From NCBI RefSeq assembly GCF_002155145.1, contig NZ_CP021323.1, positions 2,976,001 through 3,040,000 of the forward strand: a stretch of DNA of 64,000 bases, given 5' to 3'. Within the stretch, counting starts at the first letter, position 1. The number at the start of each line of letters is the position of its first letter. A program made the translations under genes and the position numbers. This stretch comes from Kushneria konosiri (GTDB lineage Bacteria; Pseudomonadota; Gammaproteobacteria; Pseudomonadales; Halomonadaceae). The notes under the pieces are model-generated. The model did no database searches. It was given only the letters and a program-made list of their open reading frames with translations, and was not told where the DNA came from. Of the stretch, positions 39,180 to 53,600 are shown one piece after another.

Positions 39180-39343
39180 GGCAACAGTATTATCCGCTCG
39201 ATCGGTGGGGCAGGAATCTGCAGGTATCGGCGCATGGCCTGAGACGATATTTTAACACTGAGAGGGATTAAGGCGACGCCTGATGCAGGGTGATCCAAAA
39301 GTCCGTACCATGTTGGCTCCTGTCACTGGATCCCAGGCCAATA

Positions 39344-48316: not shown

Positions 48317-49101
48317 GTCAGGCCTTCACTGTCATCATCCCGGCTCGATTTGCCTCGCAGCGTCTACCCGGCAAGCCGCTACTGGAGATTGCCGGCCGTC
48401 CCATGATCGAGCATGTCTGGCAGCGGGCGATGTCTTCCAATGCCGCCAGAGTACTGATTGCCACCGATAGTGAGCAGATTGCCACGGCTGCCCGAGCCTT
48501 TGGAGCAGACGTTGTCATGACACGCGAAGACCATGTCAACGGTACGTCAAGGCTCACGGAGGTCGTCGACAAGCTCGATCTTCGGGATGAGGAGTGCATC
48601 GTCAATGTCCAAGGGGATGAGCCGCTTCTTCCCAGCAGCATGATCGACCGGGTGGCCGAGTCGCTCAAGGGAGACGAGGGTGCGGCCATGGCAACCCTTG
48701 CCGAGCCCATTGCCGACCGGGCCACTCTGATGCGTACCAGCGTGGTCAAGGTGGTATGCAGTCAGAGTGGGCGCGCTCTTTACTTCTCACGTGCCCCCAT
48801 TCCCTGGGACCGTGACCGCTTTGACCTGTCGAATGCTGATGATTCGCATAACATGGATGAGCTGGGACAGGGCTGGCTTCGCCATATCGGCATTTACGCT
48901 TATCGCGCCTCTTTTTTACGCGATTATCAAAACCTTCCAGTCGCACCTGTTGAAGCCTGCGAGCAGCTCGAACAGCTGCGTGCGCTCTATCACGGTTATG
49001 CCATTTCGGTCGCCGTGGCCACCGAGCAATACCCAGCCGGTGTGGATACGCCAGAAGATCTGGAACGGGTGCGTGAACTTCTGCAAAGGAGCTCAGATTG
49101 A
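48313..49101 (+). CDS. kdsB: CMP-Kdo synthetase KdsB
   Basis: 262-residue 3-deoxy-manno-octulosonate cytidylyltransferase, activating Kdo with CTP for attachment to lipid A. Motifs: FTVIIPARFASQRLPGKPLL (CTP-binding start), VQGDEPLLP and the C-terminal GVDTPEDLERV. It overlaps ycaR by four bases and ptp by four bases (TTGA). Its neighbours msbA and lpxK act on the same lipid A pathway. Confidence 0.96.
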   Translation: MSQAFTVIIPARFASQRLPGKPLLEIAGRPMIEHVWQRAMSSNAARVLIATDSEQIATAARAFGADVVMTREDHVNGTSRLTEVVDKLDLRDEECIVNVQGDEPLLPSSMIDRVAESLKGDEGAAMATLAEPIADRATLMRTSVVKVVCSQSGRALYFSRAPIPWDRDRFDLSNADDSHNMDELGQGWLRHIGIYAYRASFLRDYQNLPVAPVEACEQLEQLRALYHGYAISVAVATEQYPAGVDTPEDLERVRELLQRSSD

Positions 49102-49577
49102 TTCGAGTCCTGTTTGTCTGCCTGGGAAACATCTGTCGCTCTCCCATGGCAGAAGGTCTTTTTCGTCAAATGCTACAGAGTAGAGGCCTTGATAGCCGAA
49201 TCGAGGTCGATTCCTGTGGTGTTGGTGATTATCACGCAGGCGAGCCGCCCGATCCCAGAGCCATGCGTGAAGCACATCATCGCGGGGCCGACATTTCCGA
49301 GCTGCGAGGACGTGTCATTCGCTTGAACGATTTTGAGCAGTTTGACTACATCCTCTGTATGGATGAGGACAACCTGCAGGCGCTGCGACGGATGGCGCCG
49401 GAAACTCGCCGCGCGCATGTGGGATTGCTGATGGATTTTGCAGACGAAGGTACTGGCGCGGAAATCGGTGACCCCTATTTCGGCAGCACCGATAACTTCG
49501 GTCGCGTGGCCGATCAGATCGAGGCCGGCTGCCAGGGCCTGCTTGAGCATATCGAGCGTCAGGAAGCATCGGATTGA
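49098..49577 (+). CDS. Low-molecular-weight protein tyrosine phosphatase
   Basis: 159-residue phosphatase with the P-loop VCLGNICRSPMAEG (CX5R) and the distal general-acid motif IGDPYFGSTDNFGRV. It probably dephosphorylates tyrosine kinases of polysaccharide export or other targets; the substrate is unknown. It starts with TTG inside a TTGA overlap with the kdsB stop, with AAAGGA seven bases upstream, and its own stop is in an identical TTGA overlap with murB. Confidence 0.92.
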   Translation: MIRVLFVCLGNICRSPMAEGLFRQMLQSRGLDSRIEVDSCGVGDYHAGEPPDPRAMREAHHRGADISELRGRVIRLNDFEQFDYILCMDEDNLQALRRMAPETRRAHVGLLMDFADEGTGAEIGDPYFGSTDNFGRVADQIEAGCQGLLEHIERQEASD

Positions 49578-50582
49578 AGATGCAGTACGGCATCTCCCTG
49601 AAATCTCACAACACGCTGGGGTTTGAGTCACGGGCTCAGGCGCTCGCCGAAGCAGACTCGCTGCTGTCCCTTCGTCGTATTCTTGCCATAGGACGTCATC
49701 GCTTCAGTCGCGTGATTGCGCTGGGTGGCGGCAGCAATGTTGTCATGAACCCCCACATTGATGGATTGGTCGTGCGTTATACGGGCCAGCGCATCTGGCA
49801 TGAGCCTTTTGGCCAAAACATGGCGCTCTGGCATGTCGAAGCCGGGGTTAACTGGCATGCACTGGTGGAGAAGACTACCCGTGAGGGCTGGTGGGGGATC
49901 GAGAACCTGGCGCTGATTCCGGGCTCGGTAGGGGCCGCACCCATTCAGAATATTGGTGCCTATGGTACCGAAATCGGTGATGTCATCGAGCAAGTGCATA
50001 TCATGCATCTTGAAGATGGTCGTTATGAAATACTCGACCGAGCCCAGTGCGACTTTGGCTATCGGCACAGCGTCTTCAAGACGGCACTGGCCGGAAAGGT
50101 CATGGTGGTTCGAGTGGTGCTGCGCCTTGATCTTGATGGCAGGCCGCGTACCGGATACGGCGATCTTGCTGACCGTCTCCCGTTAAACGCAGGTCCGAAT
50201 GATGTTGCGATCGCCGTAGCCGCCATCCGCCGGGAAAAGTTGCCGGATCCACTGGTGCTGGGCAATGCCGGCAGTTTTTTTTAAAAACCCTGTGGTGCCA
50301 GCAGAACAGGCTGAGGCTTTGATGACCCGCTATTCCTCGATGCCGTGCTGGAAAACCGATCAGGGCGTCAAGCTGGCGGCCGGCTGGATGATCGATCAGT
50401 GTGGCTGGAAGGGATATCGTGACAACCGGGTAGGCGTTCATCAGCAGCAGGCACTGGTGCTGGTACATTACGGCCAGGGGTGCGTCATTGATCTGCTGGA
50501 GCTGGCAAAGCGTATTCGAGCGTCCGTCGAAGCGCGTTTTGGGGTAACGCTCGATATGGAGCCCGGTATCATCGGTCACTGA
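49574..50582 (+). pseudogene. murB: UDP-N-acetylenolpyruvoylglucosamine reductase MurB, frameshifted at a T8 run
   Basis: MurB reduces UDP-GlcNAc-enolpyruvate to UDP-MurNAc with FAD and NADPH. The first frame (49574-50284) carries the FAD-binding half (VIALGGGSNVVMN, LALIPGSVGAAPIQNIGAYG, CDFGYRHSVF) and stops directly after GNAGSFF. The second frame (open from 50265 to 50582) resumes with FFKNPVV and contains LAAGWMIDQCGWKG, HQQQALVLVHY and the terminal LDMEPGI with the catalytic Glu. Removing one T from the T8 run (50275-50282) restores a roughly 336-residue MurB, the normal length. The break is at the catalytic Ser loop, so neither half can work alone. Since MurB is normally essential, a sequencing indel or slippage-mediated recoding is more likely than true loss. 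Start is a TTG in a TTGA overlap, or ATG at 49580. Confidence 0.9.
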
Positions 50583-50610
50583 CAGAGACCTCCCTGTGTT
50601 GGTAGACAAA

Positions 50611-50641
50611 AAAAGGCCCACTCCATTGGAGTGGGCCTTTT
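50611..50641. terminator. Bidirectional terminator between murB and rne
   Basis: Perfect inverted repeat AAAAGGCCCACTCC / GGAGTGGGCCTTTT with loop ATT, flanked by extra A on the left; it lies between convergent stops at 50582 (+) and 50658 (-). Confidence 0.92.
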
Positions 50642-50657
50642 GGGTATTCACCGAACG

Positions 50658-53600
50658 TTATTCATTGGACGTCTGGTTATCCCGCTCACGCTGCTGCTGA
50701 CGACGACGTTCGCGCGGATCATTATGTGCACGACGACGCTGACGCTGCCGAGAAGTCGCTTCGGTGGCAGTGGCTTCACCCTTCTGGGGCGCACTGTCTG
50801 GCGTGGTCACCTTGTCAGCGCTTTTGTCAGCAACGGGGGTTGCTTCACTGGTCGCAGACGCTGCCTTGTCACTACTGCCGGTTACCTCGGCGATCCTGCG
50901 AGCGCTGTCGGCCTTGGCGGCAGCTTCAGTTGTAGCCGGCTTGTCAGTGCCTTTGGCGGCAACATGACTGGCAGCCTGCTCTGAGTCCTGCTTTTCTTCG
51001 GTCGCTTTATGTGGCGGCTTCGATGCAGGCTTTTCGGAGGCCTTGTCACGCGCGGCCACGCTCTGGCGATTGATATCGCGTGCCGGCGCTTCACTGAAAG
51101 CTTTGTCGGTCACGGCAGCCCTGGCGCTCTGGGAAACCAGGTGGGGCTGCTCGCGCGGCGTAGCTTCGCTGGCTGCTGTCGCGTCAACCGGTTTGGCCGG
51201 TTCGGCTTCTTTCTTTTGGGGAGTGGAGGCCGTTTCAGTTGCGGTGCGCTCTTTGCTTTGATCGACCACGGTTGTGGCAGCATTCCCGGGTACTGAAGCT
51301 TCCTTTGACTCGGCTATCGGCTTGTCTGATGTTTTGGAGGCTGTTTCACCGGCTGCCTGGCCACCGGTAATATCAGGCTCTTTGGCCGAAGCCGTCTCAG
51401 CGTTTTTGGCCTGCTGCTCCGTGACAGGTTTTTGGGACGTGTCGGCGCCAGGCTGTGTGGCATCCGCCGCTTTGACGCTGCTCGTTTCCTTCTGATCTGA
51501 AGCCGTTTCAGAAGATGACGGTTCGCGGCCGAAGGTAGCGCTCACCGATTTACGGCCGTTACCGGAAGTGGAAGAGGGTTTGCTGTCAGTCGTGGCTGGC
51601 TTCTCTTCAGTGCTCGACGCCTTCCTTTCAGAAGTGTTCGCAGGCTTTGCCGCAACAGAAGCATCGCTGCCTTGAACTGGTGCTGCCTTCGGCTCGGCGC
51701 TTGCGGGCGTGCTGGACTCCGTCGCCTTTGAACCTGCAGGGTCACTGTTCTCCCGAGCAACGGTTTCAGAGCTGGCGGATGTCGTTGATTGGCTGGCTTC
51801 AGCCTGCAGGCGTTCCTGTTCTGCGACTGCCTCAGGGCTCAGAGCCTGCTTGCGACTGCGCTGACGTGGATTGTTACGAGTACGGCGTGGCTTGCCGTCA
51901 TCGCTTTCCTGCGCCTGAGCGGGCGACTGCTGTGCACGTTGGTCCTGAGCACCTTCTGTTTTAGCGGGAGTAGACGATTCGGGGGCAGATTTTTTGCGTT
52001 CACCCTCGTTACGTGGCTTCTCGGCGCTCTTGTCTGCCGGAGCACTCTGCTGACGCTTGTCACTGCGCTCGGACGTTGCATTATCGCTTTTGGTCGGCGC
52101 TGCATTTTGCTGGCGCTTATCATTGCGATCGGTATTGGCATTGTCTGCCTTGTCCGATGTGCTGCTCTGCTGGCGCTTGTCATGACGAGCGTTGGTATTG
52201 TCACTCTTGTCAGCGTCGCGTGACGGCCGATCACGTCGGTTCTTGTCATCGCGACCCTTGTCGGAAGACGTACGCTTGTCGTTGCGGTTATTCCTGTTTC
52301 CAGTGCTGTCGTCGCGCCTTGTATTATCACGACGGTTGTTGCGCTGCTCGCCACCGCTGTTGGAAGATTTCTGTTCTTCGCGAGTAGTGCTCTCATGACT
52401 GGCCGCCGGAGACTTTTCTTCCCGTATGGCTGGTGTCTGGCGAGAGGTTTCGCTTTTGGGCTGAACGTTGCCTGCTTCCTGCCTGCTGCTTTCTTCGCTG
52501 CCCATCAGGCGGTTGAAGCCTTTCATGAGGCGGCTCAGAAAGCCGGAAGGCGCTTCTTCTGTCGGCGCTGCAGCAGGTTCGGGTGCCGGAGTACGATGTG
52601 CTACAGAACGTACGGCCGCTTCGGTCCGCTTGACGGGTTTGCGATAGGTTTCGCTTTCGTCTTCCGGTGCTTCAAAGTCATCTGACAGCTCAAAGCTTGA
52701 ACGTGCGGCTTCTTCCGGATCGACCTGATCGTCGCGATAGCGCTGAACATCGTAATGCGGAGTCTCGAGTTCAGGCTGTGGCAACAGCATGACGCGGACG
52801 CCCTGGCGACGTTCGATGTCGGCCAGTACGTTGCGCTTTTCATTGAGCAGGTAGGTGGCAACCGGCACCGGCAGCATGGCACGAATCTGGGAGCTGCGAT
52901 CCTTCATTGCCTCTTCTTCGATCAGTCGCATGATCGACAGGGACAGCGAGCGGACATCCCGGATGGTGCCCTGGCCGTTACAGCGGGGGCATACCACACC
53001 GCTGGTTTCGCCCAGTGACGGGCGCAGGCGCTGGCGAGACATTTCCATGAGGCCGAAGCGCGAAATGCGACCAATCTGGACGCGTGCGCGATCAAGCTTC
53101 AGAGCATCCCGAACGCGATTTTCGACTTCGCGCTGGTTGCGGGCAGGGGTCATGTCGATGAAGTCGATAACCACCAGACCGCCGATATCACGCAGGCGCA
53201 ACTGACGGGCGATTTCGTCGGCGGCTTCCAGATTGGTCTGCAGTGCGGTCTCCTCGATATCCCCCCCCTTGGTGGCGCGTGAGGAGTTGATGTCAATGGA
53301 GACCAGGGCTTCGGTGTGGTCAATGACGACGGAGCCGCCTGACGGCAGCTTGACTTCGCGCTCGTAAGCCGTCTCGATCTGGGATTCGATCTGGAAGCGA
53401 GAGAAGAGCGGGACATCATCGTTGTACAGCTTGATCTTTTGCTGATAGGACGGCATGACCTGCTTGACGAAGTTGAGCGCTTCCTCGTGCACGTCGGTAT
53501 GGTCGATCAGCACCTCGCCAATATCCTGGCGCAGGTAGTCGCGCATGGCGCGAATGATGACGTTGGATTCCCGATAGATCAGGAAGGGGGCCGAGCGCTT

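Follow-up and report, generated by a model that had tools for sequence, protein, structure and literature searches.

Does Kushneria konosiri carry a broken murB, or is an intact gene printed with one base too many? In the window, by which we mean the whole 64,000-nucleotide stretch of the deposited chromosome that was analysed, murB is divided between two reading frames at a run of eight T's. The most likely reading, we suggest, is that the published consensus counts one T too many in this homopolymer and that murB is ordinary, and we put the probability of this at about three in four.

The frame break in murB

The features at the break are as follows (window coordinates).

49098 to 49577, + strand: upstream ORF of 159 amino acids, the end of which overlaps the start of murB; a putative low-molecular-weight tyrosine phosphatase, read by eye.
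49574 to 50284, + strand: 5' part of murB, with the FAD-binding domain and the start of the substrate domain (FAD_binding_4, TIGR00179).
50275 to 50282, + strand: the T8 run, followed by A5 (50283-50287), from the window sequence and the genus comparison.
50265 to 50582, + strand: 3' part of murB, read in the +1 frame as FFKNPVV...GIIGH, with the MurB_C domain.

The T8 run and the A5 that follows it lie inside the gene. The context of the run, as read from the window, is GGCAATGCCGGCAG TTTTTTTT AAAAA CCC, and positions 50260-50290 read GGGCAATGCCGGCAG-TTTTTTTT-AAAAA-CCC. The first murB ORF has a TTG start, encodes 236 amino acids and terminates as ...LGNAGSFF*, with the TAA at 50282-50284. In a profile search, its product matched FAD_binding_4 with E = 6.3e-18 over profile positions 2-135 of 139. 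The second ORF reads MPAVFFKNPVVPAEQAE...GIIGH* and has 105 amino acids when counted from the ATG at its 50265 end, which is merely the nearest in-frame ATG. Its product matched MurB_C with E = 3.4e-20 over profile positions 26-99 of 99, and it aligns to residues 229-330 of the 342-residue MurB chain 1mbb. The murB model TIGR00179 matches the two pieces at 1-220 and 214-290 of its 290 positions; for the product of the first ORF, a protein search gave 1-215. The FAD-binding and MurB_C domains are therefore both present, but as printed they stand in two frames and not in one chain; likewise, both halves of the GNAGSFFKNP loop are there, parted by the frame change. The original prediction had described exactly this arrangement, with murB split by the T8-A5 run, a first frame that ends after GNAGSFF, and a second frame that bears FFKNPVV and the rest of MurB with the catalytic Glu region. 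The ORF coordinates and the sequence bear out the first part of that description, and the MurB_C match and the alignment to 1mbb bear out the second.

Since the two pieces are consecutive parts of one family, lie in adjacent frames and meet at the run, their pairing is more than chance. Because the alignment of the second piece to 1mbb begins at residue 229, the break sits at the Ser loop, and the C-terminal Glu falls in the second frame. Ser229 and Glu325 are the catalytic residues of E. coli MurB.

The ends of the gene were also noted. The TTG start of murB overlaps the end of the upstream ORF at 49574-49577, and the protein of the nearest genome compared (the sibling, a single contig of 3,667,185 bases that is 87% identical over murB), as found, also begins with L. 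The overlap suggests translational coupling. Downstream, a hairpin, GGCCCACTCC-ATT-GGAGTGGGCC, with A7 before it and T4 after it, is found at 50608-50641. It is located between murB and a convergent 1179-aa ORF (putative ribonuclease E/G-like, by reading), as expected for a terminator shared by murB and the convergent ORF.

Copy number, relatives and selection

A profile search of the whole 3,584,631-base contig gave a single MurB_C (PF02873) match, and TIGR00179 gave only the two pieces across the genome. Thus, murB is single copy here, as is normal for this gene, and the possibility of a second murB elsewhere, which had been offered as one way out, found no candidate by PF02873 or TIGR00179. 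The gene is counted essential in E. coli K-12, and in one Salmonella strain parts of murB tolerate transposons while another part does not, according to the portion of the source used here (PMC3487940).

The best three named relatives of the second half of murB are Kushneria. Each of the nine other genus genomes has one murB, with no internal stop and an open frame of 341-366 codons, and in all nine GNAGSFFKNP is intact and both MurB domains are in one chain. At the site, these genomes read TTTCTTT, TTTTTT, TTTTTC, TTCTTC and so on, one base shorter in frame terms. A comparison with close relatives had been proposed as a check of the split, and it finds 9 of 9 uninterrupted and one base shorter at the site. 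When murB is aligned with the sibling as DNA, a gap occurs nowhere but at the T8 run. We also considered 80 of the 297 confirmed GTDB loci; at least three of the 80 (L032-L034) belong to genomes already among the nine. Upstream of the site, 79 of the 80 have an open frame of 180 codons or more, and the remaining locus (L067) reaches its contig end after 93 codons. A T7 occurs within 21 bases around the site in 7 of the 80. Among the genomes searched, the surplus base appears to be private to the deposited K. konosiri sequence. It had been suggested that slippage on such a run would be an interesting control of wall synthesis; since the broken frame occurs in 0 of 9 other genus genomes, a conserved programmed switch of this kind has no support there. 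No printed account of the murB split was found in the literature searched on murB, frameshift, homopolymer and Kushneria konosiri.

The two halves of the gene were compared with the sibling codon by codon. The first half (231 codons) gave dS = 0.56, dN = 0.049 and dN/dS = 0.088, and the second half (99 codons) gave dS = 0.52, dN = 0.055 and dN/dS = 0.106. The downstream half is not decaying, because it is under the same purifying selection as the upstream half. Preserved selection of this kind is in keeping with an error, with a very recent change or with an efficient bypass, but it speaks against an old pseudogene.

Runs of one base elsewhere in the assembly

How reliable is the assembly at runs of this kind? 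The X49T sequence of 3,584,631 bp was obtained from PacBio RSII reads only, with HGAP v3 and Quiver, at a coverage given as 224x in the table and 244x in the text of the genome paper, which lists 73 pseudogenes in its Table 3 (PMC6167781). We performed a census of frame breaks in 804 kb of K. konosiri (about 22% of the genome) against 907 kb of the sibling, with 767 sibling ORFs as queries, chosen as the longest that do not overlap and each 120 aa or more in length, and a match threshold of at least 75% identity. The outcome was 635 matches with 13 flagged breaks, three of which were accepted by eye as conserved genes broken here: murB, RNase II and yejF. Gene names are from NCBIfam, with RNase II, FlgJ and YejB above cut-off and YejF as the best match below its cut-off. 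In RNase II the break falls at contig position about 2,799,730, at a C5 run where the sibling has C6, and the gene is whole in all nine of the other genus genomes. Its alignment to the sibling is 98.9% identical, compared with 88-90% over the window, and this suggests recent exchange. The yejF-like ABC transporter gene has its frame break near a G6 run at contig position about 3,144,150, with two more one-base differences nearby. These two breaks seem to lack a base, whereas murB has one too many.

The other ten flags in the census, which were sorted by eye, were of several kinds. Five are near an ORF start, probably upstream of the true start, and include the one at window position 39215; one is in a 449-aa ORF of antisense appearance, and all six were set aside. 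Two more (yejB and flgJ), in which K. konosiri keeps the family frame and the sibling does not, were also set aside. The last two fall within one 200-aa sibling ORF that is aligned in three frame-differing pieces (contig about 3,539,280-3,539,880), and they may be real breaks of a pseudogene or reflect a false ORF. In the sibling, yejB (about 90,350) and flgJ (about 3,580,470) have apparent frame breaks beside G runs and are whole in K. konosiri, so both single-contig genomes show breaks of such kind. The reverse census, of K. konosiri ORFs against the sibling, gave 13 flags in 640 matches of 691 ORFs, yejB and flgJ among them. For the window alone, 207 sibling ORFs (90 aa or longer) were compared and two breaks were flagged, murB and the one at 39215, which lies close to where a 394-aa ORF begins; the window ORFs compared with the sibling gave no flagged break.

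Long A/T runs were also followed directly. The 804 kb contain 13 A/T runs of 8, and the sibling matches 11 of them in span (8 uninterrupted and of the same length, 3 interrupted). One more is not cleanly aligned, and murB alone differs from the sibling. Among 675,205 coding bases compared with the sibling frames, the in-frame alignments contain 18 A7, 13 T7 and 4 T8 sense runs; one of the four T8 runs is probably that of murB itself, since the first murB alignment extends past the run. From the matching spans and the in-frame runs, it follows that long A/T runs are usually right in this assembly. We also surveyed 66 distinct A/T runs of at least 8, and the end of an ORF together with the start of a new ORF on the same strand was seen only at the run in murB, which is weak evidence because a shifted frame often continues past the run.

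Published experience with this technology points both ways. In a benchmark that shared machine, assembler and polisher with the X49T sequence, 376 indels were corrected by Illumina in an assembly of 3,940,687 bases, with a read input of 779,603,216 bases (PMC6848147, in the portion used here). A further study that polished with Quiver was almost free of errors: of two strains checked with Illumina reads, one had a homopolymer deletion (chromosome and plasmid) and the other had none, as far as the portion of that report used here goes (PMC5797582). A 100% match of PacBio-only and hybrid assemblies is reported for one strain in the title of a further paper (PMC7363880). The prior for an assembly error is real, yet not overwhelming.

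Origin of the surplus T

We propose the following explanation. The organism would carry an intact, ordinary, single-copy murB, in which the codons for FF-K happen to produce a long T run and then A5, and the PacBio-only, Quiver-polished assembly would have miscounted this run by one. The miscount presumably originated in sequencing or consensus calling. The difference is confined to a mononucleotide run, and the sequence is PacBio-only as published, without short-read polishing. As for other runs in the assembly, there are the breaks at C5 in RNase II and near G6 in yejF, and among the cleanly aligned A/T 8-runs of the 804 kb no other differs in span from the sibling. An error is the best supported reading on the grounds that this is the sole murB found, that E. 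coli K-12 is held to need the gene for life, that the relatives are intact and that selection is preserved. Against it count the high coverage, the A/T 8-runs that agree with the sibling and the opposite sign of the other two breaks. A homopolymer error was among the choices in the original prediction, and it comes out as the best supported of them, through the PacBio-only data, the two other run breaks and the selection on the second half, though short of proof. A true indel at the run would have the same appearance in all of the sequence comparisons made.

The best alternative to an assembly error is a real T8 at which RNA polymerase sometimes drops one U, so that a fraction of the transcripts encodes whole MurB and this accidental bypass suffices for growth. 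We consider this unlikely. A poly(T8) reporter in E. coli, transcribed by the host RNA polymerase, gave a 10% rescue efficiency by deletion (PMC6260861), and a real T8 might therefore still give some MurB; the purifying selection on both murB halves also speaks for such a bypass. However, RNA sequencing with the E. coli polymerase on another gene gave deletions of 0.007% overall and insertions of <1% at T6 and T7 (PMC6260861). In the portion of a second study that bears on this, uninterrupted homopolymer runs start <1% of E. coli transcription deletions, and no frame-restoring error was detected (PMC5574713). Thus, polymerase slippage, as originally raised, is possible at T8 according to the reporter and disfavoured by the RNA sequencing in the portions of these two papers used here (PMC6260861, PMC5574713). 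Furthermore, the broken frame is found in only 1 of the 10 genus genomes compared, and where MurB is scarce, revertants at a run of this kind would presumably be strongly favoured. It would be a stronger claim that T8 is real and that slippage there, by a dropped U or by a +1 shift at UUU-UAA, is the sole source of MurB, with an essential enzyme of a free-living bacterium wholly dependent on recoding and its supply tied to polymerase fidelity; this we regard as quite unlikely. If T8 were real, the locus would offer a natural experiment on whether slippage by accident is enough to sustain an essential wall enzyme.

The T8 might also be real and have arisen recently by replication slippage, as a mutation that is fixed or frequent in the sequenced culture only and has no dedicated bypass, the culture being mixed or growing slowly on residual activity. 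A long T run followed by A5 is likely to be mutable, such runs do occur in murB, as the T7 runs in the GTDB loci show, and a very young event would leave the second half under selection, as seen. Against this, there is one murB in the genome and the gene counts as essential in E. coli K-12, and we find a mutation of this kind distinctly improbable. A programmed +1 ribosomal frameshift is very improbable. In such a shift, the P-site tRNA-Phe would move from one UUU onto the UUU that overlaps it, with UAA stalled in the A site, and the sequence UUU-UUU-UAA does permit full re-pairing in the +1 frame. A fold of the 80 bases from 50286 has z = -1.80, with 10 of 200 shuffles at least as stable in this one window, which is a modest fold. 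An Rfam search of 49000-51500 gave no family at gathering score. The prfB frameshift site has a Shine-Dalgarno arrangement upstream, and no prfB-like motif of this type was seen by eye just upstream of the run. The shift is needed in 0 of 9 other genus genomes, so the arrangement is not conserved, and the ribosomal frameshifting that had been put forward as a choice is left with neither conservation nor a recognised stimulator seen at the site. It is equally improbable that each frame yields a polypeptide of its own and that the two associate as a split MurB. In favour of this, the N-terminal piece includes almost all of the FAD-binding domain (profile 2-135 of 139), and an ATG of the second ORF lies where the two frames overlap. 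However, the break is at the active-site loop, the four residues that open the second ORF, MPAV, replace the Ser loop, no clear ribosome-binding site was seen by eye ahead of its ATG, and the gene is split in 0 of 9 other genus genomes.

We therefore return to a consensus error as the preferred reading of the surplus T. It carries a caution, in that an essential gene is probably intact in the type strain although its deposited genome presents it as broken, and gene-loss counts from this genome, such as the 73 pseudogenes in the table cited above (PMC6167781), deserve checking against the reads.

The locus can be compared with three known systems. Residual indels of PacBio RSII/HGAP3/Quiver assemblies, as described in the portion of PMC6848147 used here, have in common with it the pipeline and a one-base run difference that makes an apparent pseudogene; unlike that case, 11 of the 12 other A/T 8-runs here share the span of the sibling, and the difference is known from the consensus alone. 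Transcriptional slippage rescue, as with the poly(T8) reporter (PMC6260861, in part), is similar in having an A/T run at the break and a surplus base that can be skipped, and slippage rescue of frameshifted genes is mentioned for Buchnera and Blochmannia in the text used (PMC5009743). The murB case differs in that it occurs in a free-living host with 59% G+C and in one genome only. From the ordinary single-copy MurB (UDP-N-acetylmuramate dehydrogenase), the locus differs only by the frame break in the deposited sequence; its pieces match consecutive parts of that enzyme, and the gene is whole in the nine other genus genomes.
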